Shown here one piece after another: positions 1 through 33,990 of a stretch of 37,959 nt of DNA. Each line of letters begins with the position of its first letter. The stretch's first letter is position 1. Source of the DNA: Chloroflexota bacterium (GTDB taxonomy: Bacteria > Chloroflexota > Anaerolineae > 4572-78 > NAK82); contig JAJRXB010000274.1 in NCBI GenBank assembly GCA_024276515.1, positions 1-37,959 of the forward strand, read 5' to 3'. The notes below the pieces were generated by a model, which saw only the letters and a program-made list of their open reading frames with translations, searched no databases and was not told the origin of the DNA. The position numbers and the translations under genes were made by a program.

Positions 1-2188
1 CCACGGCGTCGGCGTCGGCCCTTGTCCTCACCGAGATCCGCCCCAGGAACATATCCGGCAGGATGTCGTCGCCACTCACGCACACGAACCAATTGTCAGA
101 AGGGGTCTCCCCCAGTTCCAGCGTATCAATGAGATGGGTGGGCACGTAGTTGACGTTGCCTGTCCCCAGGTTGTCCTTGTAGTCCATGTTCGCATCACCC
201 ATCAAGAGAACGTACTGGGGGGCTGGCGCAGTCCAATTCTCGTAGGCATACGCCAAAAAGTCCCGGATCGCCTGGGGGTTAAAGATGCCATAGTTGAACT
301 CGTCGTAAACGTCGGTGATCTCGACCGTTGCCGTCCGCAACCCCTGGTTCTCCCGATGAGTGGCCAACGTCAGGGCACTGGTGTAGAAATCCTGGTGGGT
401 GATGATGACGTAGTCAGCGCCGTTGTCGGTAGACCTCAGGTCAGATGGCTCGTCGAGGACGATGCTGACCGGGCTCTTGCGCTGCGGCGGCGTCAGGGCC
501 AGATAGCGCGTGTCCGTCCCGCAGGTGTCTTCGAACCGGGCCAGGTAGGTGCTGCCTGCTGTCTCTACCTCGCCGTTGACGATACGGGTGACGCTGAGCG
601 GATGGGTAACGTCGAATATGTCAACGGTATCGGTGGTGAAATTGCTCACCTCGAACTTGTACGTGCCGGCTCCCGGACCACGGAACCCCAGCACGTCGCC
701 CTCCGCCACGTAGGTGTCCCAGTAGCCGATCTCAAACCAGTTATGGTAGACGATGTCCACCGACGCACCGGTATCGCCTGCCGACTCGACCCTGATCGTA
801 TTGACGCCTTCCAGCAATTGGGTCTGGGATATCGTCGCCTGGTGCTGATACTCGATCTGCCCATCCCACCAGGCGTCGGAGACCAGCGTTCCGTTCAGGT
901 AGATCCGGGTATGGTGATTCGGGTAGGTGGGCGGGTTCGTTTTCCCCCGCAGGGTCACTGTCACCTGGCCCGTATCGCTGATGCCGGCGATGTTGTTCAG
1001 GCCGACAGAGTAGTTTCCCGAGGTTGGGGCGCTGAGTTGTTCCCAAAAATAGTGGTCCTGCCCTTCCCCATTGGGCAGGCCTTGCCAGTATGTGTTGTCC
1101 TCCTCTGCGCGCACGACGTTGTAGAATTCGGTCGGCACCGCTGCTGACCCCGGGGTCCCGTCTCGCTCCGCCATACGCAGCCCGTTTTCTCCCCCATAGG
1201 TTAACCAATACACATTCTCAACGGTAAAGACGTCGGTGATGGCTGTGCCGTAGAACACCAGGTAGTCCCCCGGGTCGAAACTGCCGTCGTTCTCGCCCTG
1301 GAGGTAGATAGGAATTTCGATCCCGCGATTGGTCATCTTGATCGTGCGCGGGTCCAGTTCGGCCAGATCCAGACCTGCGCTTTGCAGGTCGGAGGGGGTG
1401 ACTTCGTAGATTCCATCTTCTGCCACGGATATTTTGAGCGCGGGAGACTGGTTGGCCGTGGCGGACACCTTTCGACCGGGCAGGTTACTGTCTGATTGGT
1501 CGCCGTCGTCTACCTGCCTGCCCAGGCTTGCGTAATTGAGAAGTACGTTTTGCAGGAGCCCTTCGTAGGCCCTGCCACCCGGCCGGCGTGTAGCGTCCGC
1601 TTGCGCCACCGTGCCAAAAGTCACCCTGAGCCGAATGCGGCGATAGAACCTCGCTTCCCCGGTGACCGGGTTGTACTGGAGAGGGTAGATGCGCAGTTGC
1701 ACCACCGCCTGATCGCGCACGTAGCCCGAGAAGCCGATCTCCGCCAGCCGGCCTGGATAGAAGGAGTTGGTGGCGTACACGGCCGCATCGAGGGCGAATT
1801 CAGGCTCAGCGTGCCGAACGCCACCGTTCTCTCTGATGACCAGGGCCGGGCTCGGATACAGGTTGTAGCCGGACAACGTCCGGTAGTCCGACTCCAGAAC
1901 CTCGACGCGGGCACTGCCGCCTGGCGCGCCCAACAGCACTCCCTGCACCGGCACCTGAGGGCTGCCCACCTCCGTCGTCCAGGCCAGACCGGGGAGGGTC
2001 ACCCTGTGATAGGTCACCCCTTCGTGCTCCACGGTTTCCGCGTGGAGGTCTGCCGCGGCGAACTCGAGGACGACGCTCTGGTCATCGGAGTGTAGGAGCC
2101 TGAGGCTCTGAGGCTCAGGGGGGGTGGCACCGAAATTGGTCACTCCACAGATGGCACACAGCGCTACCAGCAGCCCTTTTTTTCTCAT
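1..2188 (-). CDS. Secreted C25-family (gingipain-like) cysteine peptidase, 3' end truncated by window edge
   Basis: Minus-strand frame reads openly from ATG at 2188 (MRKKGLLVALCAICGVTNFGATPPEPQSLRLL...) in the stretches I translated, through ...YVLLMGDANMDYKDNLGTGNVNYVPTHLIDTLELGETPSDNWFVCVSGDDILPDMFLGRISVRTRADADAV at the edge. Signal peptide, C25 N-terminal prodomain style and the YVPT/SDNWFVCVSGDD/PDMFLGRISVRT block of Peptidase_C25. Absent from the ORF track because it has no stop inside the window. Confidence 0.86.
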   Translation of the reverse strand, partial: MRKKGLLVALCAICGVTNFGATPPEPQSLRLLHSDDQSVVLEFAAADLHAETVEHEGVTYHRVTLPGLAWTTEVGSPQVPVQGVLLGAPGGSARVEVLESDYRTLSGYNLYPSPALVIRENGGVRHAEPEFALDAAVYATNSFYPGRLAEIGFSGYVRDQAVVQLRIYPLQYNPVTGEARFYRRIRLRVTFGTVAQADATRRPGGRAYEGLLQNVLLNYASLGRQVDDGDQSDSNLPGRKVSATANQSPALKISVAEDGIYEVTPSDLQSAGLDLAELDPRTIKMTNRGIEIPIYLQGENDGSFDPGDYLVFYGTAITDVFTVENVYWLTYGGENGLRMAERDGTPGSAAVPTEFYNVVRAEEDNTYWQGLPNGEGQDHYFWEQLSAPTSGNYSVGLNNIAGISDTGQVTVTLRGKTNPPTYPNHHTRIYLNGTLVSDAWWDGQIEYQHQATISQTQLLEGVNTIRVESAGDTGASVDIVYHNWFEIGYWDTYVAEGDVLGFRGPGAGTYKFEVSNFTTDTVDIFDVTHPLSVTRIVNGEVETAGSTYLARFEDTCGTDTRYLALTPPQRKSPVSIVLDEPSDLRSTDNGADYVIITHQDFYTSALTLATHRENQGLRTATVEITDVYDEFNYGIFNPQAIRDFLAYAYENWTAPAPQYVLLMGDANMDYKDNLGTGNVNYVPTHLIDTLELGETPSDNWFVCVSGDDILPDMFLGRISVRTRADADAV

Positions 2189-2238
2189 CAAAGACTCCGC
2201 TGAAAAAAACCGGGTTTATCGAATGCCCTCCATTGTGT

Positions 2239-3414
2239 TCATCCGCCGCTCACCAAATCGCAGATCAGTTCTGCCATCTCGTCCAGCCTGCCCACGGAGA
2301 GGCGATAACACCGCATCTGGCTCACCATATCTGCCAGTTCCAGGAACAAGCGTGCGGCGCTACCCTGGTACTCTTGCTGTATGAGAACCGAGTTGCGCCC
2401 GGCCCGAAATCTTCTGACCAGTTCCATCGTCGCTTCTGCGCTGGAGATCGGCTCCAGCCTGGGTGATGCTTCGAAATCGGGCCGGCGCTCGCCACCTTTG
2501 ACCACGTCGAGGATGCGCACTCCCTGCCCCCGGCATATTTCCTCGATCCGAGAAGTGACGGACGTGCCTCTTTCAACGCGCAATCGAAGCGCCGGCAGCG
2601 TGCCCTCCGGCACGCGCTCTACGTCCTTCACCCCCCTGATGCCCCGCATCTCCTCCAACAGGGCGGCGGTGATCCGCTCCGGGAGGAGGTATAGCGTTCG
2701 ATCAGGCTCATCCAGCCCCCTCCCCTCGCTTGAGGGATTCGACAGGACGACGACGTACCCTCCCGGGCACGGCTCACCGAGGCTATCAGGCCGGATGCGT
2801 TCGATGTCGAGGATCAGTTTGTCCCGCCAACTTGTGGCCGGGGCAGAGTGGTGCGCTGTGCCCCTCGGCTCTATTCGGGACGTCGCTGTCGAAGGAGGGG
2901 GTGTGAATCCCCACAGAGCCAGGGTGCCGGGGCGCAGCCGCAGACTGCGGGGAAACGGAGTCAGCCGACGGTGCTGGCGGTCGAAGGCCGCGATCTCGTC
3001 GGAGAGGAACTTGAAGCCCCGTCTCACCAGTTCCAGGATCAGGGTGGTCTTGCCGTGGCCGGAGTAGGCGGGGAAAACGACGCCGTGACCGTTCCAGGAT
3101 ACCACCCCAGCGTGAATCAGAATGTGGCTTCTGACCCGGGCGACGATGGAGTCGAGGATGCGTTCATAAGCCAGATCGACCAGAGAGTCGGAGTCGTCGA
3201 GGGTCAGGACTTGATCGTCAACGACCAGCATCCTCTCTTGGGTCATCACGTAGCAGGTCGTCTGAGTCTCGTCGCAGCCGTCTGCACGGAAGCGCCGATA
3301 CATATCGGCAAACAGGTCCAGGAACTCCCGCGAGTCGGATTGAGCGGCGATCACTACGTCAAAGAAACGGTAGCTGTCGCGGTGGGGAGCGCGGCCCCCA
3401 AACGTCGGCCACAT
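2239..3414 (-). CDS. HPr kinase/phosphorylase-like (HprK-related) kinase of a PqqD/radical SAM module
   Basis: 391 aa ORF; Walker A-like AYSGHGKTTLILELVRRGFKFLSDEIAAFD followed by HprK-style DE(I/V)AA; N-terminal YRFFDV...SREFLDLFADMYRRF; located 15 nt after the radical SAM gene. Confidence 0.75.
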   Translation of the reverse strand: MWPTFGGRAPHRDSYRFFDVVIAAQSDSREFLDLFADMYRRFRADGCDETQTTCYVMTQERMLVVDDQVLTLDDSDSLVDLAYERILDSIVARVRSHILIHAGVVSWNGHGVVFPAYSGHGKTTLILELVRRGFKFLSDEIAAFDRQHRRLTPFPRSLRLRPGTLALWGFTPPPSTATSRIEPRGTAHHSAPATSWRDKLILDIERIRPDSLGEPCPGGYVVVLSNPSSEGRGLDEPDRTLYLLPERITAALLEEMRGIRGVKDVERVPEGTLPALRLRVERGTSVTSRIEEICRGQGVRILDVVKGGERRPDFEASPRLEPISSAEATMELVRRFRAGRNSVLIQQEYQGSAARLFLELADMVSQMRCYRLSVGRLDEMAELICDLVSGG

Positions 3415-3429: not shown

Positions 3430-4809
3430 CTACTGACAGGCTGGCTCCATCGCCAGGTTCTCCCGGCTCAGTTTACGCCCTGCCAGGTTGAAAAAAGTTT
3501 CCCGGTAGAGGTGCTGGCGGAACTCGCAGAGGTCGTCGGTTGCCAGCATTGTACCCTTCTCCCAGAGAATGCTGGCCGGGCAACACGCCTGGCAAAAGTT
3601 TCTCCAATGGCAATGGCGACACTTTTCGATGAGTGTCTTTCTGGCTGCGCAGAAACTCTCCAGCTCCCCCAGATTGGGGGATGCCACAATCTGTCGCAGG
3701 GGCATGCGCTTGACGTTGCCCAGGCGAAAGTCGGGCGTCATCAACATGGAGCAGGGATACACGTCTCCCTGGGCGTCCACAGCGGCGTAGCGGCCAATGC
3801 CACACCACATTCCCTGCTCCGGGACATCGAGAACAAAGCCCTGGAACCCGCCATCAACGGCGATTTTACGAGGGTGGGCAAGGCGTTTATAGACGCAGGC
3901 GTACAGTTGTGCATAGCCCCCGGGCACGGGGCTTATCTCCGTCCAGACAGTCTTCGCTCGCCCCAGCCTTTGGAGAGGCATAAGGCGGAGCCTCACCCCC
4001 ATCCGTTCTGCCAGGTCAATCATATTGGGCACGTCAGCGACGTTGTGCCTCATCACGGTCATACAGAACGCCAGTTCACCGGCGAAGCCACGCCTGCGCA
4101 ACAATTCTACGGCGTGTATGGTCCTGTCGAAGGTTCCCGGGCCTCTGACTCGGTCGTGGACGGCCGGGCTGGCTCCGTCGAGGCTGATCTGGATGACGAG
4201 GTCCAGTTGGCTCAGGGCAGCAGCGGCCTCCTCGTCAATCAGGGTGGCGTTGGTGGTCAGAGAGGTTCGCACCCGCCGGGAGGCGTACCGCAGGACGTCC
4301 AAAACGTCCCCGCGCAACAGGGGCTCTCCGCCGCTCAGGGCCAGCGAGTCGTCGTTGGCCGGGGAGAGTTCGTCTACGAGGCGATATACCTCCACCGTGG
4401 TGAGGGCATCTGATGGCGCTGGCCTGCCCGTCACTGCGCAATGGATGCAACGCAGGTTGCACCTCTCGGTGACGCTGAGATGCAGGTGAAGCGGGCGAGG
4501 AGAAGAGGAGCCCGTTCCACTGGAAGGGGCGTGATCGAGCAAGAAGCCGGCCCGCTCAAGTTGCCGAAGGCAGGCGATGACATCGGCCTGCACCTGATTG
4601 GGTTCCTGGGCATAACGGGTGGCGATGATAGCGGCAATATTTTGTACTGTGTGCTCGCCATCGCACAGCCTTGCGATCTGGAGCCCCACGAGGTTGACCA
4701 CTATCCAAAGGGGCTTTTCGGGATGCAAGAGGAGATGAAGGCCCTCTTTCTCCTCGTGCATCAGTGGGGTCGGAACGTGAGGGGTGTATGAGGGCGTGAA
4801 TTCAGCCAC
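3430..4809 (-). CDS. Radical SAM/SPASM peptide maturase with N-terminal PqqD-like (RRE) domain
   Basis: 459 aa; PqqD-like N-terminus (LWIVVNLVGLQIARLCDGEHTVQNIAAIIATRY...), radical SAM CNLRCIHC (CX3CX2C), SGGEPLLR, C-terminal SPASM cysteines (WCGIGRY...YPCSM...KCRHCHWRNFCQACC...DDLCEF). GTG start with upstream AGAGGAG. Confidence 0.93.
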   Translation of the reverse strand: MAEFTPSYTPHVPTPLMHEEKEGLHLLLHPEKPLWIVVNLVGLQIARLCDGEHTVQNIAAIIATRYAQEPNQVQADVIACLRQLERAGFLLDHAPSSGTGSSSPRPLHLHLSVTERCNLRCIHCAVTGRPAPSDALTTVEVYRLVDELSPANDDSLALSGGEPLLRGDVLDVLRYASRRVRTSLTTNATLIDEEAAAALSQLDLVIQISLDGASPAVHDRVRGPGTFDRTIHAVELLRRRGFAGELAFCMTVMRHNVADVPNMIDLAERMGVRLRLMPLQRLGRAKTVWTEISPVPGGYAQLYACVYKRLAHPRKIAVDGGFQGFVLDVPEQGMWCGIGRYAAVDAQGDVYPCSMLMTPDFRLGNVKRMPLRQIVASPNLGELESFCAARKTLIEKCRHCHWRNFCQACCPASILWEKGTMLATDDLCEFRQHLYRETFFNLAGRKLSRENLAMEPACQ

Positions 4810-4835: not shown

Positions 4836-4997
4836 CTAGCAGCCCACGACTGACCCACTATGGTTGTAGCAGGCTCGGGCTGGTCCCAGTTCCTCCAGAA
4901 TCTCGTCCTTGTCGAGGGTGATGACCTTCGGCGGCTCGTATTTTGGAAGTTCCTCTTCCTTTTCTTTCAAGATTCGCTTTGGCTTCACGTTTTCCAC
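4836..4997 (-). CDS. Putative RiPP precursor peptide (53 aa) for the adjacent radical SAM enzyme
   Basis: GTG start at 4997 preceded by AAGGGAGCAAGCT (GGGAG ribosome-binding-like), TAG at 4836-4838. Translation: VENVKPKRILKEKEEELPKYEPPKVITLDKDEILEELGPARACYNHSGSVVGC*. Charged leader, EILEELGPA motif, short C-terminal core with two Cys; 23 nt after the preceding stop and 26 nt before the radical SAM start. Confidence 0.76.
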   Translation of the reverse strand: MENVKPKRILKEKEEELPKYEPPKVITLDKDEILEELGPARACYNHSGSVVGC

Positions 4998-5020: not shown

Positions 5021-5980
5021 CTAATGCGGCGCAAAGGGCCTGTGTGGCGGGCGGCGAAATGGGCGTGTCACTGTGACTGCCACCGGGCCGTGGGGAGTGC
5101 TCACGCCGTAATAGTCCACGTCTTCCAACCGGTAGTAGAAGGTGCCGTAGCCCGGCGTGTCCAGGAAGCTGTAGCGGGCGCCGGACACCGGGTCGCCCTC
5201 GGCGGCGATGAGCGCGTCGTTGATCCGGGTGTAGGGTCCGTCTTCGGCCGTGGCGCGGTACAGGTTGAAGCCGGCGTTGTCGAGCTCTGTGCCCGTCTCC
5301 CAGGCCAGGGTGACACGGCCAGCACTTGCCTCGGCGGTGAAGGAGGTCAGCGTAATGGCAGTGGGTGGCCCGGTCACGGAGTTGGGGGCCTTGGGGGTGC
5401 CGTTGATAGGGTTGCCGTCGGCGTCCAGCCCGTTGCGCGTCACGCCATCGTTGGTGGCCCAGTTGCTATCGGCATCAGAGGCAGAGGGGGTAATGCGCTC
5501 CATGCTGCGGTAGTCTGGGCTGCCGGTACCGGCCGGCCAGCCGCCGCCGTCGCCGTTGGCGGTGTCAATCAGAGTCCCGGCGTCATCGCGCAGCTCCAAT
5601 TTCTCCCCGGAGTTGCCGAGGGCTCCGGTGTATATCTGGTCGGCGGCGACGTCGCTCACTGCGTTGTCGTCAGTGCGCTCCAACAGGAAATAGCCGTGGG
5701 CGGGAATCGTTTTGCCATTTTTAAGGGTGATGCCTGGTGTCCCATCGGCTGCGGTCAGCGTCCAGCCGCTCAAGTCAATAGCATTGCCGGTGTTGTTGTA
5801 CAGCTCGATCCATTCGTCGGCGGGGCTGGCCGCCGTACCGCCCCAGGCCACCTCGTTGATGACCACGTCCAGGGGTCCAGATCCGGCCTGCTGTGACGGC
5901 GCTGCGTTCACCCATCCCCTGGCGGAGACCAACCCTGCCACGATAACCAACCCCACAAGAACGGGTATGCCTTTTTTCAT
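5021..5980 (-). CDS. Secreted lamin-tail-domain (LTD) protein with C-terminal FN3-like domain
   Basis: Signal peptide MKKGIPVLVGLVIVAGLVSARGWVNA; LTD motifs VVINEVAWGGTAASPADEWIELYNNTGNAIDLSGWTLTAADG; C-terminal ITLTSFTAEASAGRVTLAWETGTELDNAGFNLYRA...YRLEDVDYYGVSTPHGPVAVTV. Confidence 0.85.
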   Translation of the reverse strand: MKKGIPVLVGLVIVAGLVSARGWVNAAPSQQAGSGPLDVVINEVAWGGTAASPADEWIELYNNTGNAIDLSGWTLTAADGTPGITLKNGKTIPAHGYFLLERTDDNAVSDVAADQIYTGALGNSGEKLELRDDAGTLIDTANGDGGGWPAGTGSPDYRSMERITPSASDADSNWATNDGVTRNGLDADGNPINGTPKAPNSVTGPPTAITLTSFTAEASAGRVTLAWETGTELDNAGFNLYRATAEDGPYTRINDALIAAEGDPVSGARYSFLDTPGYGTFYYRLEDVDYYGVSTPHGPVAVTVTRPFRRPPHRPFAPH

Positions 5981-7200: not shown

Positions 7201-7482
7201 TCAGGCCATCTTCTTCAACAGCCCTTTGCCGGCAAAGACCGCCAGCGCCCGCCGGACATCTCCGGCCACGTCGTGTTCATCGGCCCCGGAGAAGCTGGCC
7301 CTGACCGCTCGCTCTATGTCTTCTGCGGTGTGCTCCCCATTGCAAAGTTCCCAGATGAGCTGTGCGGTGGGGTTGAGAATATGAATTGCCTCGTCGTCGG
7401 CGCTATAGAGCAGTGTTTCACCTCCAATATCCTTGACAGTGATGTCCGGCTTGCAGACGGGTTTCGTTATGTTCATTATCAC
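7201..7482 (-). CDS. Stand-alone PqqD-family (RRE) protein
   Basis: 93 aa; KDIGGETLLYSADDEAIHILNPTAQLIWELCNGEHTAEDIERAVRASF, typical PqqD fold sequence; shares the LC(N/D)GEHT block with the N-terminus of the radical SAM protein. Confidence 0.87.
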   Translation of the reverse strand: MIMNITKPVCKPDITVKDIGGETLLYSADDEAIHILNPTAQLIWELCNGEHTAEDIERAVRASFSGADEHDVAGDVRRALAVFAGKGLLKKMA

Positions 7483-7489
7483 TCCTTTT

Positions 7490-7790
7490 ATGCTCCTTGA
7501 GCCACCCCTTCAGGATGGCCGCCGGGTAGGCGAAGGACCGCTCCAACACCGGCCGGCCGCCGACCTTGAAGACCATCAGCAGTTGGCACAGGCCGTAGTC
7601 GAAGGAGAAGGGGAGCACGTTGATGACGGCGAACACACCGCCCGCTTTGAGGGTGGCGAAGATGCCCACCACCGCTTCGACGGAGTTGTTGAGGTAAACC
7701 GCCACCCGGTCGCCGCGCCGAACGCCACCCTCGATCAGGGCGGTTGGCCAGGCGGTCGGCGCTGTGGTGTAGAATGTCCTGGACGAGCAT
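7490..7790 (-). pseudogene. Relic of an AMP-forming acyl-CoA ligase/synthetase
   Basis: MLVQDILHHSADRLANR is followed in another frame by ALIEGGVRRGDRVAVYLNNSVEAVVGIFATLKAGGVFAVIN, joined directly to VLPFSFDYGLCQLLMVFKVGGRPVLERSFAYPAAIL. These are parts of one ligase family with the intervening residues missing, a frame break, and no C-terminal half. Confidence 0.72.
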
Positions 7791-7837: not shown

Positions 7838-8095
7838 CTAGCCCCCGGCCCCCAGTGTCTTGCTGCGGACGTAGCGCGCCAGTTTGCTGACGGAGTCGAA
7901 GTTGTCGGGGGTGATCTCCTGGTCGTCCACCGTCACGCCAAAGGTCTCTTCGACGAAGAGCACCAGCTCCAGCACGCCGACGGAGTCGACGATGCCTTCT
8001 TGCAGAAAGGAGTCGTCGTCATCGTACTCAAAGCCATCGTCGCTGAAGAGCAGGTTCTGGGCCACGTATTTTCGAATTTGGGCTTCGATTTCCAT
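7838..8095 (-). CDS. Acyl carrier protein
   Basis: MEIEAQIRKYVAQNLLFSDDGFEYDDDDSFLQEGIVDSVGVLELVLFVEETFGVTVDDQEITPDNFDSVSKLARYVRSK; phosphopantetheine site DSV. Start chosen at the Met 19 codons inside the listed ORF. Confidence 0.88.
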   Translation of the reverse strand: MEIEAQIRKYVAQNLLFSDDGFEYDDDDSFLQEGIVDSVGVLELVLFVEETFGVTVDDQEITPDNFDSVSKLARYVRSKTLGAGG

Positions 8096-8103
8096 TTGAA
8101 CCT

Positions 8104-10533
8104 TCACTCGAGCTGGGTCGGATCGCGGGGCGGGTCGGTGTATTTGATCCACACCGGGTTCCAGTCGTTGAACCCGGCACGACTGAGGCTGTACAAATTG
8201 CTCCCGTCGGCGTCCATCACCCAGATTTGCCGGTTCCCGGTGCGATTGGACCAGAAGACAATCTTCGATCCATCAGGTGACCAGGATGGATGTTTGTCCC
8301 ACCAGCTATATCTGTCTCTGGTCAGTTGACGGGCACCGCTGCCATCACGATTGATGACCCAAATCTCGTCATTGCCGCTGTCGTCCGAGACAAAGGCGAT
8401 CTGATCGGCGGTGGGAGACCAGGCCGGCTCATAAGCGATGCCGGCGCCAAAATGGGTGATTTGCCCCTCTACTTTGTAATAGGAATCGTAGAAGAAAAGA
8501 GCAGGAACTCTCAGTTGAACGGGAACGACGTTACCGAAGCTGTCCTCCACGCCCGTATCTATGATTGCATCCTTCACAAATACCCGGAGCCGTTGGTCCG
8601 GAGAATAAGCGTCGCGGGCCAGGGCCAGGTCGTAAGGCCAGCGATCGGTCAGCAGGGCCAGGTTACTCCCATCCGGATCCACCAGGAAGACCAATGGGTC
8701 TTCCCCGCCAGCTCGATCTGAGACAAAGGCGATCTTGCCCACCAGTTCCGACGGGATGGACCGGGGCGTGGCCGTGGGGGTGGGAGTGGGACTCGGGGTC
8801 AGAATCCCGCCCTCGAGCAGCACGAAAATCGGCGTCGGTGTGACCGTCCACACGTTCATCGGCGTGGGGGTGGGTGTGCCGTAGGCCATTGCTTCGGCGG
8901 TGGCGAGTGTGTTCTGGTACACAGCCGTGGCCGTGTTGGCCGGCGTCGGGCTGGGTGCGACGATGATGGGCGTCACCCAGTTCTCTGGGGCTGGCGTGTA
9001 GGTGCCTGTCGTGGCAGCCACGCGGGTGGCGGTAGCCGCCAATGCCACCACGGTGAAAACGTTCTCCGGCGTCGGTGTGCTGGTGACTATCACGTAGGTC
9101 GGGCTGGGTGTGGCCGTCCAGACATCGGTCGGCAGCGGCGTGGGAGTTCCATACAGGAAAGCTTCGGCCGTCGCCACAGCAGCCACCCACTCCGCCGTGG
9201 CAGTGTTGCCGGGGACGGGGGTATTGGTGACGATAACGGGCGGTGTGGCCGTGACCATGTTTGCAGGCCATGGGGTGGGCGTGCCGATGGCGGTGGCCTG
9301 GTAAGTGGCGGTGGCGGCCAGGGCGACCGCAGTCACCACGTTGGCGGGCGTGGGTGTGGCCGGGATGGCCGGGACCACGACGGGCGTGGGTGTGGGCGGA
9401 GGCTGGTAAACGAGGCGCAGGGCCGGGCGGTTGCCGAACCCGCCACCGTAACCCGTATCCCAGGTGAAGAGATTATCCGCTCCCTGGGTAGGGCCGTCGA
9501 GGCGAAAAGATACCAGCCCGGTCTCCAGCCGTCGTTCCAGTTCTTCGAGGTGGACCGCTGTGAAGGTGAAAACGTTTACCTGGCGCACTGCCAGGTCCTC
9601 GGGCTTCAATTCGGGGGGGATGGTGTCGAGTACCGGTGCGTCGCGTATCTGATCGTAGGTGGCAGCCACCCAATTCCCATCCACTTCTGGGCCCAGGAGA
9701 CGGAGGGTCCAGGTTCCTCCAGTTCCCAGGTGCTCCCCGCTCAACCCTGCCAACTCCAGGGTCGCCGCCTCGATCCTGGACCCCAACGGGACGGACGCCA
9801 GGTTGAACTGCATCGCGCCGTAGTAGGTGTGGCCCTCGAAGGCACCCACGTGCAGATTGCGGTCGCCGAAGTGGTTGAGCGGATCGCTGCTCGACACCCA
9901 GCCCACGGCATTCCCAACCGGATAGAGAACGACTTGCAACCTGCCGGGAGGCAGGGTAGGATTTGGCAGGCGTGGCACAGGCGTCGACGCCACCACCGGG
10001 ACGGCCCCTGCTGGCGTCGGCGTCTCCGCCGGAGGCATCGTCGGTGGCGGCGTGGGTGCGACGAGGGGGGCTGAGGGGGGGGCGACAAGGGGATCAGCTC
10101 CGGCCAGCGACCGCCTCATATTCAGGTAACTGTAGACGGCCGCCAGGACGAGAAACGCTATGGCGATCCACGCCACCCACTGTAGCAGGGAAATCTCTTC
10201 CAGGAACGCCACAAGCCAGAACGGGGGTCGCGACGGTGGGGCAGGTGCTGCATCCTCCGGCAGGGAGGAGACATCGCCACCGGCCAGAGGGACGGAGGGC
10301 GGACGCTCGACAGCCGGGGAAGGCATCGGCTCTGGCGGTGCCACGAATCGGGGACAGGCGTCAAAAGTGGAGGTCAGACAGAAAGCTGCCTGGTGATCCA
10401 GATCAATCCGCTGGCACCTGGTCGCCACGTAGCAGCGGTGCTCCTCCGCCGGTTCGGTGAAGATGGAAGCCCGGTCGGCCTGCAATCCAAAATGGGGACA
10501 ATAGCGTTGGTGGTTGGGCGATATGGGGGGCAT
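8104..10533 (-). CDS. Membrane protein with Cys-rich N-terminus, DNRLRE-like domain, Thr/Pro/Ala repeat region and C-terminal TolB/PD40 beta-propeller repeats
   Basis: N-terminal CPHFGL...HRCY...HQAAFCL...CPRF; TM LLQWVAWIAIAFLVLAAVY; SSSDPLNHFGDRNLHVGAFEGHTYYGAMQFNLASVPLGSRIEAATLEL; repeated NxxTxxxxxAATAT...GTPTP; KIAFVSDRAGGEDPLVFLVDPDGSNL, QIAFVSDDSGNDEIWVINRDGSGARQLT, KIVFWSNRTGNRQIWVMDADGSNL. Confidence 0.88.
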   Translation of the reverse strand: MPPISPNHQRYCPHFGLQADRASIFTEPAEEHRCYVATRCQRIDLDHQAAFCLTSTFDACPRFVAPPEPMPSPAVERPPSVPLAGGDVSSLPEDAAPAPPSRPPFWLVAFLEEISLLQWVAWIAIAFLVLAAVYSYLNMRRSLAGADPLVAPPSAPLVAPTPPPTMPPAETPTPAGAVPVVASTPVPRLPNPTLPPGRLQVVLYPVGNAVGWVSSSDPLNHFGDRNLHVGAFEGHTYYGAMQFNLASVPLGSRIEAATLELAGLSGEHLGTGGTWTLRLLGPEVDGNWVAATYDQIRDAPVLDTIPPELKPEDLAVRQVNVFTFTAVHLEELERRLETGLVSFRLDGPTQGADNLFTWDTGYGGGFGNRPALRLVYQPPPTPTPVVVPAIPATPTPANVVTAVALAATATYQATAIGTPTPWPANMVTATPPVIVTNTPVPGNTATAEWVAAVATAEAFLYGTPTPLPTDVWTATPSPTYVIVTSTPTPENVFTVVALAATATRVAATTGTYTPAPENWVTPIIVAPSPTPANTATAVYQNTLATAEAMAYGTPTPTPMNVWTVTPTPIFVLLEGGILTPSPTPTPTATPRSIPSELVGKIAFVSDRAGGEDPLVFLVDPDGSNLALLTDRWPYDLALARDAYSPDQRLRVFVKDAIIDTGVEDSFGNVVPVQLRVPALFFYDSYYKVEGQITHFGAGIAYEPAWSPTADQIAFVSDDSGNDEIWVINRDGSGARQLTRDRYSWWDKHPSWSPDGSKIVFWSNRTGNRQIWVMDADGSNLYSLSRAGFNDWNPVWIKYTDPPRDPTQLE

Positions 10534-30192: not shown

Positions 30193-31893
30193 TCATTCCA
30201 AGTATCCCAAGGCATGCAACCGTTCTACGACTTCTGGCGCAATCTCCGTTTCAAGGCGAACAGAGGATACGGCTTCCCCAGGGTGAGACACAGGGTCAGC
30301 ACTCTGCTGATACCTCACTGGCCATTGTTCTACAAAAGGTTCCTCGAACAGATCCAGCAACGGATGTCCATCATAATCTTCTGGAATCGGCACCCCAGTG
30401 GCATACAACAATGTGGCAGGGATGTCCATCAAGTCCGCAACTCGAAATTCATCTTCAATGACCTTGCGGAATGATGGGCCACAGACAACGAAAAGGCCGT
30501 TCATAGAATGATCACCAAAGCGTGTTTGCGAATCGACGACATACTTCGTGTCATGTCGGCTTGTCGGACGGATGTGACGCGCATCTTGCAATAGCGTATA
30601 GGGTGAATCAGACAAGTCAAGATATAGCTCTGGTGCGTCTTTGACGTATGGCTCGGTATAGGCAGTATTAGTTTGCACTACACCCTCAAAGATTCGTTGT
30701 CCCGTGTCAGGATCTGTTTCATTCTGCACTTCGGAAGCAAACTTATGAATGAGATTCCTTATTTGACTTGGCCCTGAAACGCCACCAGTTGAAAAGCGAT
30801 CTTGCGAATTAATCCACACCATTCCCGTGGGGCAAGGAGCAAAAAGCCGAGTCCTTGTCCAATCGATCTCACAGCCCCTGCGATAATGGCTGGCTGCCCC
30901 AGGTGCCACCCTATACAACACAGATTCGAAGATCCGCCGCACCACCGCCGGAGACCAGAAAAGGAGCAATGCCGTGCACTTTCGTAAGACCCTCTCTCCA
31001 AACCCATTCATACCCCACCACTCTTGAAAAAGTTCGGCCAGAGCCCAGTTTATTCCTTCAAAGCTTGTTCTGTCCTTTTCCTTGGTAACGAGGTAGTCTC
31101 TGTCGTAGAGCCAACGTTTGAGCTCAAACGTCTTGGGGGTACGGCGGCTACCATGGTCGGACAAGATCACGAAATCGGTATTTGGGAAGGCACACAGCAA
31201 CCTACCGATGTTCTCGTCAACGCAGCGGATCGCAGCTTCGCAAAGTTGATAATCTCGAGCTACGTGATTGACCCTATCCAGAATTACGTAGTTGAGGACA
31301 AGCACATCAATGTCGAAATCACTTGCTGCATCGATGGCGATTTGTGTTCGTCTATCTTCTTCTTCAGCCCAGGCTTTGCAATAGGCAGTCTCCCCTTGTT
31401 CATACAAGATACTAAACGGCACCTCAACTTCATACTGTCCATATCTCTGATTTATGGTCTGCAGAAGAGAATCCGGATATGTGAGTCGGCGACTACTCTC
31501 CTGAGCGTCCAGACCGCAGATTACAAACCCATCTAGAGGTTGAGGAGGATAAGTAGTAGGGATATCAATAAGGCCAACTCTGAGGCCCGCTCGATTCATA
31601 TAGAAGGTGAATGGAGTCCCACATCGGTCAGCGCCAGAGAATAAGCGGAAATCATGGTCCTTACCAGTGTACACCAACCAATCAAACAAGCTATGCTTGC
31701 CGGGGTTCTTCCCGGTCATGAATGACGCCCACGCAACTGACGAGACCGGGGGGATGACCGATCGCAGAATACCTGCAGTCCCATTATCCCGTAGGCGAGC
31801 AATATTCGTGATTTCACCACGCCTGATTAAAGGATCAAGGTACTCCCAGCACCCACTATCAATTCCTACCACTATCAATCGAGGTTTACGCAT
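30193..31893 (-). CDS. Type I phosphodiesterase/nucleotide pyrophosphatase (alkaline phosphatase superfamily)
   Basis: MRKPRLIVVGIDSGCWEYLDPLIRRGEITNIARLRDNGTAGILRSVIPPVSSVAWASFMTGKNPGKHSLFDWL; VILSDHGSRRTPKTFELKRWL; ends ...RLHALGYLE. Confidence 0.9.
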   Translation of the reverse strand: MRKPRLIVVGIDSGCWEYLDPLIRRGEITNIARLRDNGTAGILRSVIPPVSSVAWASFMTGKNPGKHSLFDWLVYTGKDHDFRLFSGADRCGTPFTFYMNRAGLRVGLIDIPTTYPPQPLDGFVICGLDAQESSRRLTYPDSLLQTINQRYGQYEVEVPFSILYEQGETAYCKAWAEEEDRRTQIAIDAASDFDIDVLVLNYVILDRVNHVARDYQLCEAAIRCVDENIGRLLCAFPNTDFVILSDHGSRRTPKTFELKRWLYDRDYLVTKEKDRTSFEGINWALAELFQEWWGMNGFGERVLRKCTALLLFWSPAVVRRIFESVLYRVAPGAASHYRRGCEIDWTRTRLFAPCPTGMVWINSQDRFSTGGVSGPSQIRNLIHKFASEVQNETDPDTGQRIFEGVVQTNTAYTEPYVKDAPELYLDLSDSPYTLLQDARHIRPTSRHDTKYVVDSQTRFGDHSMNGLFVVCGPSFRKVIEDEFRVADLMDIPATLLYATGVPIPEDYDGHPLLDLFEEPFVEQWPVRYQQSADPVSHPGEAVSSVRLETEIAPEVVERLHALGYLE

Positions 31894-33167
31894 CGCGTGT
31901 ATTCCTCCGTTACAGACTTTCGAGTGACCGCCACTGGCTCATAACACCACTCAGCTGCAGGAATGAAAATCCCCCCCCATGTGGGGTCCACATTCTCTTT
32001 TGGGGGATCGAGGATGAGAAACGAACTTACACGCTCGTAGAGAAAAGGGGCGGCGGTTTCGTCTGCAATCGCAAATTCCAGAAAGTAAGTTCCCGCGTTC
32101 AACTGCATATCTCTGATTGTCACCCGTAGCAAACAGACGTCTACCAGATAAGCAACATTCAGACTACTAGATCTGACAACGCAGCATCTAAGGCCATCCG
32201 ATCGAACGACAATGATGCTGAAAAGCGGTCTCTCAACTCGCTCATTTGCTCTTAGTTCAATCTCGACTGTTAGATCTTCTCCAAACGAAAACCGACTTGT
32301 CGGACGGCCATCCTGCGCAACAAGGCGAACACTGCACAATTCAACGACTCTGTCTGCAGCGCTTGTAGATTCCTCGACAGCAGCTAAATGCCCGGCCTTG
32401 CTGAACTCGGCTTCGTGTATCCAGTTCTCGTAACTCTGGACCACACTCGTTGCCGGGCCTTTGTACTTGACAGTTCCATCTAACAGGAAGATCGCCTCTT
32501 CACAGATTCCCTGGACAGCATACATATTGTGAGAGACAAAGACGATGGTTGTCCCTCTCTCTCTCAGAGCTCTCATCTTCTTTTGGCATTTGCATCGGAA
32601 AGAAAGGTCACCAACTGAGAGCACCTCGTCTACCAAAAGGATGTCCGGATCGATATGGACTGCCACAGCGAATCCCAATCGCGCATACATCCCACTGGAA
32701 TACCGCTTAACCGGCGTATCAATGAACTTCTCCAGTTCGGCAAAGGCCACGATGCCATCGTAGATGCGATCCACTTCGGCTTCCTTCAATCCCAGAATCG
32801 AGGCGTTCAAATACACATTTTCCCGGCCAGTCAGTTCGGGATGAAAGCCAGCACCGAGCTGGATGAGTGCTCCCACTCGTCCACGCACCCCAATATGCCC
32901 TGAAGTGGGTGTGGTGATGCCGGCCACAAGGGACAGGATCGTCGTCTTGCCGGCGCCATTGGGGCCAATGATACCCAGTGTCTCTCCGGGTCGCACCTCG
33001 AAGCTTACATCACGCAACGCCCATATCTCCTTAGCCGGACTCCCACCCCCCCCGTCGCGCCGAAGCCAGCGCTGGGCGAATCCAGGGAGCAGATAGTTCG
33101 CGTAGGCACGCTGGCTGCCCAAGTAGTAGCGTTTGGATACGTTTTCGAAACGAATGACCGGTTCCAT
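31875..33167 (-). CDS. wzt: ABC transporter ATP-binding protein with C-terminal carbohydrate-binding-type domain (Wzt-like)
   Basis: MEPVIRFENVSKRYYLG; GIIGPNGAGKTTILSLVAGITTPTSGHI; YSSGMYARLGFAVAVHIDPDILLVDEVLSVGD; C-terminal SRFSFGEDLTVEIELRANERVERPLFSIIVVRSDG. Start taken at MEPVIRF. Confidence 0.93.
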   Translation of the reverse strand: MEPVIRFENVSKRYYLGSQRAYANYLLPGFAQRWLRRDGGGGSPAKEIWALRDVSFEVRPGETLGIIGPNGAGKTTILSLVAGITTPTSGHIGVRGRVGALIQLGAGFHPELTGRENVYLNASILGLKEAEVDRIYDGIVAFAELEKFIDTPVKRYSSGMYARLGFAVAVHIDPDILLVDEVLSVGDLSFRCKCQKKMRALRERGTTIVFVSHNMYAVQGICEEAIFLLDGTVKYKGPATSVVQSYENWIHEAEFSKAGHLAAVEESTSAADRVVELCSVRLVAQDGRPTSRFSFGEDLTVEIELRANERVERPLFSIIVVRSDGLRCCVVRSSSLNVAYLVDVCLLRVTIRDMQLNAGTYFLEFAIADETAAPFLYERVSSFLILDPPKENVDPTWGGIFIPAAEWCYEPVAVTRKSVTEEYTRCVNLD

Positions 33168-33171
33168 AGAC

Positions 33172-33990
33172 TCAGATAATGTCAGCCATTGCCATCTCCA
33201 GTTGCTTAAAGTAGGCGTAGGCAATGGCACAGAGTAATAGTGAGATAAACGTGGCCACGCCGAGATAGCCAAAGTCTGGCAACTGGCCTTGGAGTACGAC
33301 CCATCGGTAGGAGTGGATGATGCCGGCCATAGGATTGAGCAAATAGAAGGCTCGCCAGCGTTCCGGAACCATACTCAGCGGGTAGATGACCGGCGTGGCG
33401 TACATCCAGAGTTGCATACCCAACGGGATGGCGAAGGAAATGTCTCGCAGAAACACACTGATGGCCGCTCCCAGCAGGCTGACTCCCAGCGCCAAGACCA
33501 TCTGGATTGCCAGTAACAGAGGTACAAACAGCAGGGTGGCGTGTATCGGGATGTGATACCAGAGTATCAGTCCCACAAAGACCAGCGAGGCAATGGCAAA
33601 GTCGACCAGCCGAGCCAGGATGGCCGACAGCGGGAGGATCTCTCGAGGGAAATAGACCTTGGTCACCAACTGCATATTCTGGATCACACTTGGCACTGCT
33701 CCGGAGATCGAGCTGGCAAACAAGGTCCAGGGCAAAAGTGCCGCGTAAGCAAAGATCGGGTAAGGAATCCCCTCGCTGGGCACGCGCACGAAACTACCAA
33801 AGACGATACTGATGACAATCATCTGGAACGCCGGCTGCACCAGCGCCCAGCCGAAGCCCAGCACTGATTGGCGATAGCGAGCCCGAATCTCGCGACTTGT
33901 CCATCTGAGCAATAGCTCCCGGTAGTGAGCTAACAAACGCAGGTTCTGCCAGAAGGATCGTCGTTGTAGCGTCACCGGTTGGGTTGTCAT
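33172..33990 (-). CDS. wzm: ABC-2 type polysaccharide export permease (Wzm-like)
   Basis: HYRELLLRWTSREIRARYRQSVLGFGWALVQPAFQMIVISIVFGSFVRVPSEGIPYPIFAYAALLPWTLFASSISGAVPSVIQNMQLVTKVYFPREILPLSAIL. Confidence 0.95.
   Translation of the reverse strand: MTTQPVTLQRRSFWQNLRLLAHYRELLLRWTSREIRARYRQSVLGFGWALVQPAFQMIVISIVFGSFVRVPSEGIPYPIFAYAALLPWTLFASSISGAVPSVIQNMQLVTKVYFPREILPLSAILARLVDFAIASLVFVGLILWYHIPIHATLLFVPLLLAIQMVLALGVSLLGAAISVFLRDISFAIPLGMQLWMYATPVIYPLSMVPERWRAFYLLNPMAGIIHSYRWVVLQGQLPDFGYLGVATFISLLLCAIAYAYFKQLEMAMADII

Follow-up and report, generated by a model that had tools for sequence, protein, structure and literature searches.

A RiPP precursor gene paired with a radical SAM/SPASM enzyme in a Chloroflexota cassette that resembles linear polyphosphorylated peptide pathways

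In the genome of a Chloroflexota bacterium, a frame of 53 codons fills the space between a gene for a secreted protein and a gene for a radical SAM enzyme. Is this short frame a gene, what kind of peptide would it encode, and which enzymes would act on it? We addressed these questions in the window, meaning the whole stretch of 37,959 nucleotides analyzed here, and in 397 genomes of the same class. The features needed to begin with are the following.

4836..4997, minus strand: RiPP precursor peptide gene, 53 aa, GTG start, TAG stop (ORF, 21 class relatives, conserved leader)
5021..5980, minus strand: secreted lamin-tail-domain (LTD) protein (PF00932)
3430..4809, minus strand: radical SAM/SPASM peptide maturase with N-terminal RRE (Pfam, alignments, AlphaFold model; motif CNLRCIHC)

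The peptide reads exactly as in the initial annotation, with a GGGAG ribosome site in the bases 5' of the GTG start (agaacaaGGGAGcaagct), 23 nt to the stop of the LTD gene (5021) and 26 nt to the start of the radical SAM gene (4809). A frame of 53 codons may well arise by chance, and its status as a gene therefore comes from conservation in relatives. These were collected by tblastn of the peptide in the 397 class genomes, after which the loci were scanned by motif and by HMM; matches at four loci (L016, L017, L018 and L022) were left out as lying inside longer frames. The search yielded 21 relatives, which with the window peptide make 22 peptides in 16 genomes. A leader block of 26 residues is conserved in all 22 and aligns without gaps, which rules out a chance ORF. 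Over this block, pairwise codon differences per site amount to 0.37, 0.34 and 0.64 at positions 1, 2 and 3 in the 22 sequences, a third-position bias that indicates purifying selection on the protein. Two checks set beforehand, conservation at homologous loci and a coding-type substitution pattern, were thus both passed, and we conclude that 4836-4997 almost certainly encodes a RiPP precursor.

Beyond the class, a sample of 399 genomes of the phylum gave no credible match to the precursor profile, the precursor peptides gave no credible match to an NCBIfam or Pfam family, and a text search for the leader motif returned nothing relevant. Belonging to no curated family, such a precursor would be missed by annotation pipelines that depend on these models. 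Rfam detected no RNA element around the peptide. A weak terminator-like hairpin lies at the end of the precursor gene (window 4840-4852, minus strand) and could set the ratio of precursor to enzyme, such matches being near chance level.

Within the peptide, three parts can be delimited.

4923..4940, minus strand: YEPPKV (Y20-V25), the YxxPxV motif of the leader, with a role in RRE binding predicted by analogy; Y in 21/22, P in 22/22, V/I/L in 22/22 peptides
4878..4904, minus strand: EILEELGPA block, leader end and predicted leader/core junction between P39 and A40; G in 22/22, A in 19/22, [I/L]-L-x-x-L conserved
4839..4880, minus strand: predicted core ARACYNHSGSVVGC, with C43 at core position 4, Y44 at position 5, and SVxxC

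Across the family the leader consensus LPxYExPxVxTYxxEEILEELGPAQA is kept and the C-termini vary: in the gap-free block, P, G and [S/T] are each found in 22/22 peptides and Y in 21/22, while the predicted cores that follow the conserved GP are 5 to 34 residues long and variable in content. This bears out the RiPP layout of leader plus core that had been proposed from the single sequence. YxxP is a known RRE-binding motif in the leaders of lasso peptides and of linear polyphosphorylated peptides (LPP) (PMC12710340, PMC13381572). The latter, described in 2026 by Popov et al. and stated to be restricted to Bacillota, have their leader cut between T and AQS and are polyphosphorylated on Ser3 (PMC13381572). 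It is from this site that we predict the junction between P39 and A40; the short two-Cys core of the initial annotation is retained, with a start more likely at A40, giving ARACYNHSGSVVGC, than at R41.

The beginning of the cores has a further regularity. Of 20 distinct cores, 18 have a hydroxyl residue (Ser, Thr or Tyr) at position 5 or 6, compared with 7.7 expected in shuffles (0/20,000 shuffles as high), these two positions having been picked after the cores were inspected. Three relatives end in GTAQAVS or GAAQAVS. Both observations make a kinase site near the core start likely, the hydroxyl at position 5/6 being the likely target. The three minimal precursors (L038, L153 and L164, all in genome G094) are 28-31 aa long, end in GxAQAVS and are nearly all leader; two of them, L038 and L153, lie directly 3' of genes with a C-terminal domain like that of the LTD protein.

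Which enzyme, then, acts on the peptide? The radical SAM/SPASM enzyme with a PqqD/RRE domain reported next to it was confirmed, Pfam finding all three domains (PqqD/RRE at residues 25-90, Radical_SAM at 112-267, SPASM at 339-401). The SPASM cysteines are C336, C353, C397, C400, C406, C410 and C428, of which the first six are invariant in 15 aligned relatives. In a profile search of the 397 class genomes, the subfamily of this enzyme was found in only four at E<1e-230, the next best match being at 4.5e-61. These four genomes (the window's own, G000, and G018, G039 and G131) belong to four families, and their cores, in the same order ARACYNHSGSVVGC, AQACSFYGSVMDC, AQACSFGHSVVVC and AQACSFGHSVIEC, are all of the form A-[QR]-A-C-...-SVxxC. 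A core with C4 and SVxxC thus occurs at all loci that have the enzyme (4/4) and at none of the others (0/18), for which Fisher's test gives p 1.4e-4, a value that overstates independence if the four Cys cores share one ancestor. The contrast holds within one genus, where G039 has both the enzyme and the Cys core, and G137 has neither. Two-Cys cores with other spacing occur at four loci without the radical SAM enzyme.

Peptide and enzyme also recur together in another phylum. A scan of GTDB with the radical SAM alignment gave, among the matches listed, a relative at 35% identity on a Sumerlaeota contig (L040). The gene order there is C25 peptidase, SpI-PqqD fusion, small peptide, P-loop HprK-like kinase, NTP_transf_5 and radical SAM-SPASM-RRE; the small peptide contains YEAPRILTHS and NACTSAFG, and the kinase matches its profile weakly (TIGR04352, E 5.6e-5). 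With this six-gene cassette, the slot of the peptide and the enzyme are found side by side a second time. The link between peptide and enzyme, originally drawn from adjacency, is strengthened by both lines of evidence, and the peptide is very probably a substrate of the 3430-4809 enzyme.

The chemistry of this enzyme is less sharply indicated. Its AlphaFold model (pLDDT 80.9, pTM 0.78) matches the sactisynthase CteB best (PDB 5wgg), then SkfB and SuiB, with PqqE as another structural neighbor; the sequence neighbors are anSME, CteB, PqqE and SkfB. A full SPASM domain together with an RRE, as in sactipeptide enzymes, is present, yet the sactipeptide model NF045574 (StsB) scores 145.9 of 625 bits and the ranthipeptide model NF047865 (PapB) 86.1 of 340 bits, both far under the cut-off. 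The CteB-like fold and the Cys core lead us to favor a thioether, and the enzyme probably joins a core Cys in such a bond. Sequence and modeled fold do not tell apart an alpha-carbon linkage, another linkage, or a different radical chemistry. The last could be a C-C or C-O crosslink, an epimerization, a decarboxylation or a Cys excision, as in the mycofactocin, PqqE and streptide systems. MftC gives the best NCBIfam score of the enzyme (168 bits, cut-off 265), PqqE and SuiB are among its structural neighbors, and only one Cys is present in the core of the Sumerlaeota peptide. It is nonetheless a Cys, at core position 4, that tracks the enzyme. To our knowledge, core motifs specific to PqqE or MftC are not apparent in the peptide, which also speaks against such chemistry, and we regard it as rather unlikely.

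The cassette turned out to be wider than first noted, with the following members.

2239..3414, minus strand: HprK-like kinase (TIGR04352 E 2.7e-19, below cut-off; Hpr_kinase_C)
7201..7482, minus strand: discrete RRE of the PqqD family, 93 aa (PF05402 E 3.2e-11)
2..2191, minus strand: secreted C25 (gingipain-family) peptidase with C25 propeptide (PF01364 E 4.4e-43, PF08126), truncated by the contig end

Kinase residues H101, K122 and D139 are invariant in all relatives aligned, and an HprK profile search retrieves solved HprK structures. At E<1e-50, HprK is found in 14/16 precursor genomes versus 3/381 others (17/397 in all); of the only two precursor genomes without it, one is represented by a 4-kb contig and the other is 74% complete. 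All twelve cassette RREs aligned have an Asp that appears equivalent to D70 of LppB, the residue that holds the leader Tyr in LPP (PMC13381572); a PDB search with the RRE alone brought up unrelated repeat proteins only. Synteny of precursor, HprK and C25, with the RRE nearby, extends across the class relatives, in which the C25 peptidase adjoins HprK. An NTP_transf_5 protein occurs at L026, L030, L031, L037, L040 and L153-L155, and a signal-peptidase-like S24/S26 (SpI-like) protease at L028, L030, L031, L037, L040 and L153-L155; both are out of view in the window, where the contig breaks off within the C25 gene. Taken together, precursor, RRE, kinase, NTP transferase and SpI protease amount to most of the LPP core. 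No MsbA-like exporter was found near the peptide in the ORF lists of the window, and the ABC pair at 31875-33990 resembles an exporter of polysaccharide.

The recurrent neighbors also include a secreted protein whose C-terminal domain is conserved. In the window this is the LTD protein, whose C-terminal domain (~115 to ~155 residues; window 5021-5500, minus strand) recurs beside the peptide in relatives; together with C25 it could possibly form a C-terminal sorting system. Secreted proteins with nothing else in common carry domains of this type at the C-terminus, as many as 19 in one genome (G094), and often end in YLPLxxR or in a membrane anchor with RR. Between the RRE gene and an intact acyl carrier protein gene (7838-8152) lies the remnant of an AMP-binding ligase (window 7508-7744, minus strand), in two pieces that match residues 58-99 and 221-260 of its intact counterpart at L030, where intact ACP and ligase genes directly precede the RRE and the precursor. 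At the same locus (L030:7105-9051, genome G137), an asparagine-synthase/glutaminase protein directly follows NTP_transf_5 and could be either a lasso cyclase or an enzyme of a sugar locus.

These neighbors bear on a first alternative, a standard sactipeptide- or ranthipeptide-type operon. Here the class-defining modification would come from the radical SAM enzyme alone, and the HprK-like kinase and the C25 peptidase would lie nearby without being related to it. The radical SAM gene does directly follow the peptide, the sactisynthases CteB and SkfB come closest among solved structures, and StsB is among the best named models. Most peptides of the family, however, have HprK and RRE and lack a radical SAM gene next to them, the precursor is followed far more closely by HprK than by the radical SAM enzyme, and the scores stay far under the family cut-offs, as given above. 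The radical SAM neighbor of the initial annotation is thus kept and the plain operon, judged unlikely, is replaced by a cassette with an LPP-type shared core.

A second alternative, a lasso peptide of the paeninodin kind with a remote cyclase, is also raised by the shared genes, since a YxxP leader, PqqD, HprK and NTP transferase are lasso tailoring genes too (PMC9266682, PMC10368454), and a B2-type peptidase domain (PF13471) is encoded elsewhere in the window's genome (contig C573:3751-4074). Near the peptide, inspection of the window ORF lists by eye showed no apparent Asn-synthase-like cyclase or B2; several of the precursor genomes lack B2, and two of these belong to the four that have the radical SAM enzyme; and some cores, with 5 residues (AQAVS), fall short of the length that a lasso needs. 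A cassette lacking cyclase and B2, with 5-residue cores in relatives, led us to reject a lasso peptide, which we consider very improbable. The PF13471 domain on C573 suggests a separate lasso cluster.

We therefore favor, with a probability of about 0.6, an LPP-like phospho-RiPP precursor whose cassette has gained a radical SAM enzyme, so that the Cys core is also radical-SAM modified. By analogy, YxxPxV of the leader would dock on the discrete RRE (7201-7482), on the RRE domain of the radical SAM enzyme itself, or on both. The HprK-like kinase (2239-3414) would then phosphorylate a hydroxyl near the core start, here Y44 or S47/S49 and in relatives usually Ser/Thr/Tyr at position 5/6, and an NTP transferase, presumably past the contig end, may decorate the phosphate. 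In the window genome and the three others, the SPASM radical SAM enzyme would modify the C4...SVxxC core, most likely through a thioether of the sactionine or ranthipeptide type between nearby residues and one or both of the Cys sulfurs. Cleavage of the leader near GP/A might fall to the C25 peptidase or to the SpI-like protease that relatives encode, and the mature peptide might leave with a surface-polysaccharide system. LPP and BsfK biochemistry counts for the phospho-RiPP part (PMC13381572, PMC10368454), and LppK, which accepts only Ser in its own substrate (PMC13381572), counts against it, position 5 of the window core being Tyr; on balance, phosphorylation of the core is somewhat favored by analogy. 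If the proposal holds, a kinase and radical chemistry are combined on one short core, and the co-variation of enzyme and Cys core defines a directly testable enzyme-substrate pair. More tentatively, the product may be a new RiPP type, in which a core hydroxyl bears (poly)phosphate or phosphosugar and the neighboring Cys forms a radical SAM thioether, and which is matured by a secreted C25 peptidase in a surface-polysaccharide context outside Bacillota.

How does the cassette compare with known systems? With the sactipeptide maturases CteB, SkfB and StsB it shares RRE, radical SAM and full SPASM domains, a Cys-bearing core and the best PDB fold match; it differs by ~21% identity to CteB over the model, scores below every family cut-off and a kinase-type cassette. 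As the model cut-offs are not reached and the linkage is one that we infer, we did not class it among the sactipeptides. The SynChlorMet and HPr-rel-A cassettes (NCBIfam TIGR04248-04251, TIGR04352/04353) likewise contain HprK-like and PqqD-like proteins, and SynChlorMet also SPASM enzymes, but the window proteins fall below all cut-offs and the precursor has no NCBIfam or Pfam family; membership was rejected on the scores (ScmC/D/E/F: 13.9/125, 30.8/100, 130.8/400 and 77.1/400 bits). The phosphorylated lasso peptides paeninodin and Bsf have a YxxPxL leader, an NTP transferase and an HprK-like kinase for which stimulation by the RRE was shown (PMC10368454, PMC9266682); the cassette here differs in its leader end and has neither lasso cyclase nor B2.

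The closest comparison is with LPP, whose set comprises a YxxPxV leader, RRE, HprK-like kinase, NTP transferase, SpI-like protease, MsbA-like exporter and a polysaccharide neighborhood (PMC13381572). Common to both are the YxxPxV leader (YEPPKV here, the motif in 21-22 of 22 relatives), the variable C-terminus, a discrete PqqD-type RRE with the Tyr-binding Asp (7201-7482) and the HprK-like kinase (2239-3414); relatives here add the NTP transferase and the SpI-like protease. Polysaccharide loci and a short AQ(x)S-like core start are shared as well. The full leader consensus YxxPxVLxHQxIxFETxxS is not found in the window, which has YEPPKVITLDKDEILEELGPA: the leader here is [ST]-aromatic-x4-[IL]L-x2-LG[PT]A where LPP has HQxIxFET, and is ~4 residues longer. 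Since both this consensus and the MsbA exporter are missing, the cassette was not filed as LPP. Other differences are the C25 peptidase and the C-terminal-domain proteins, and, in four genomes, the radical SAM/SPASM enzyme with its Cys core. The main text of the LPP paper makes no mention of radical SAM (PMC13381572), and the pairing of a radical SAM/SPASM-RRE enzyme with LPP-type phosphate machinery appears not to have been described before. The cassette thus functions in the manner of an LPP pathway to which a radical SAM step acting on the peptide has been added, and the LPP-type core in Chloroflexota and Sumerlaeota, as against Bacillota, widens the range of this kind of pathway.
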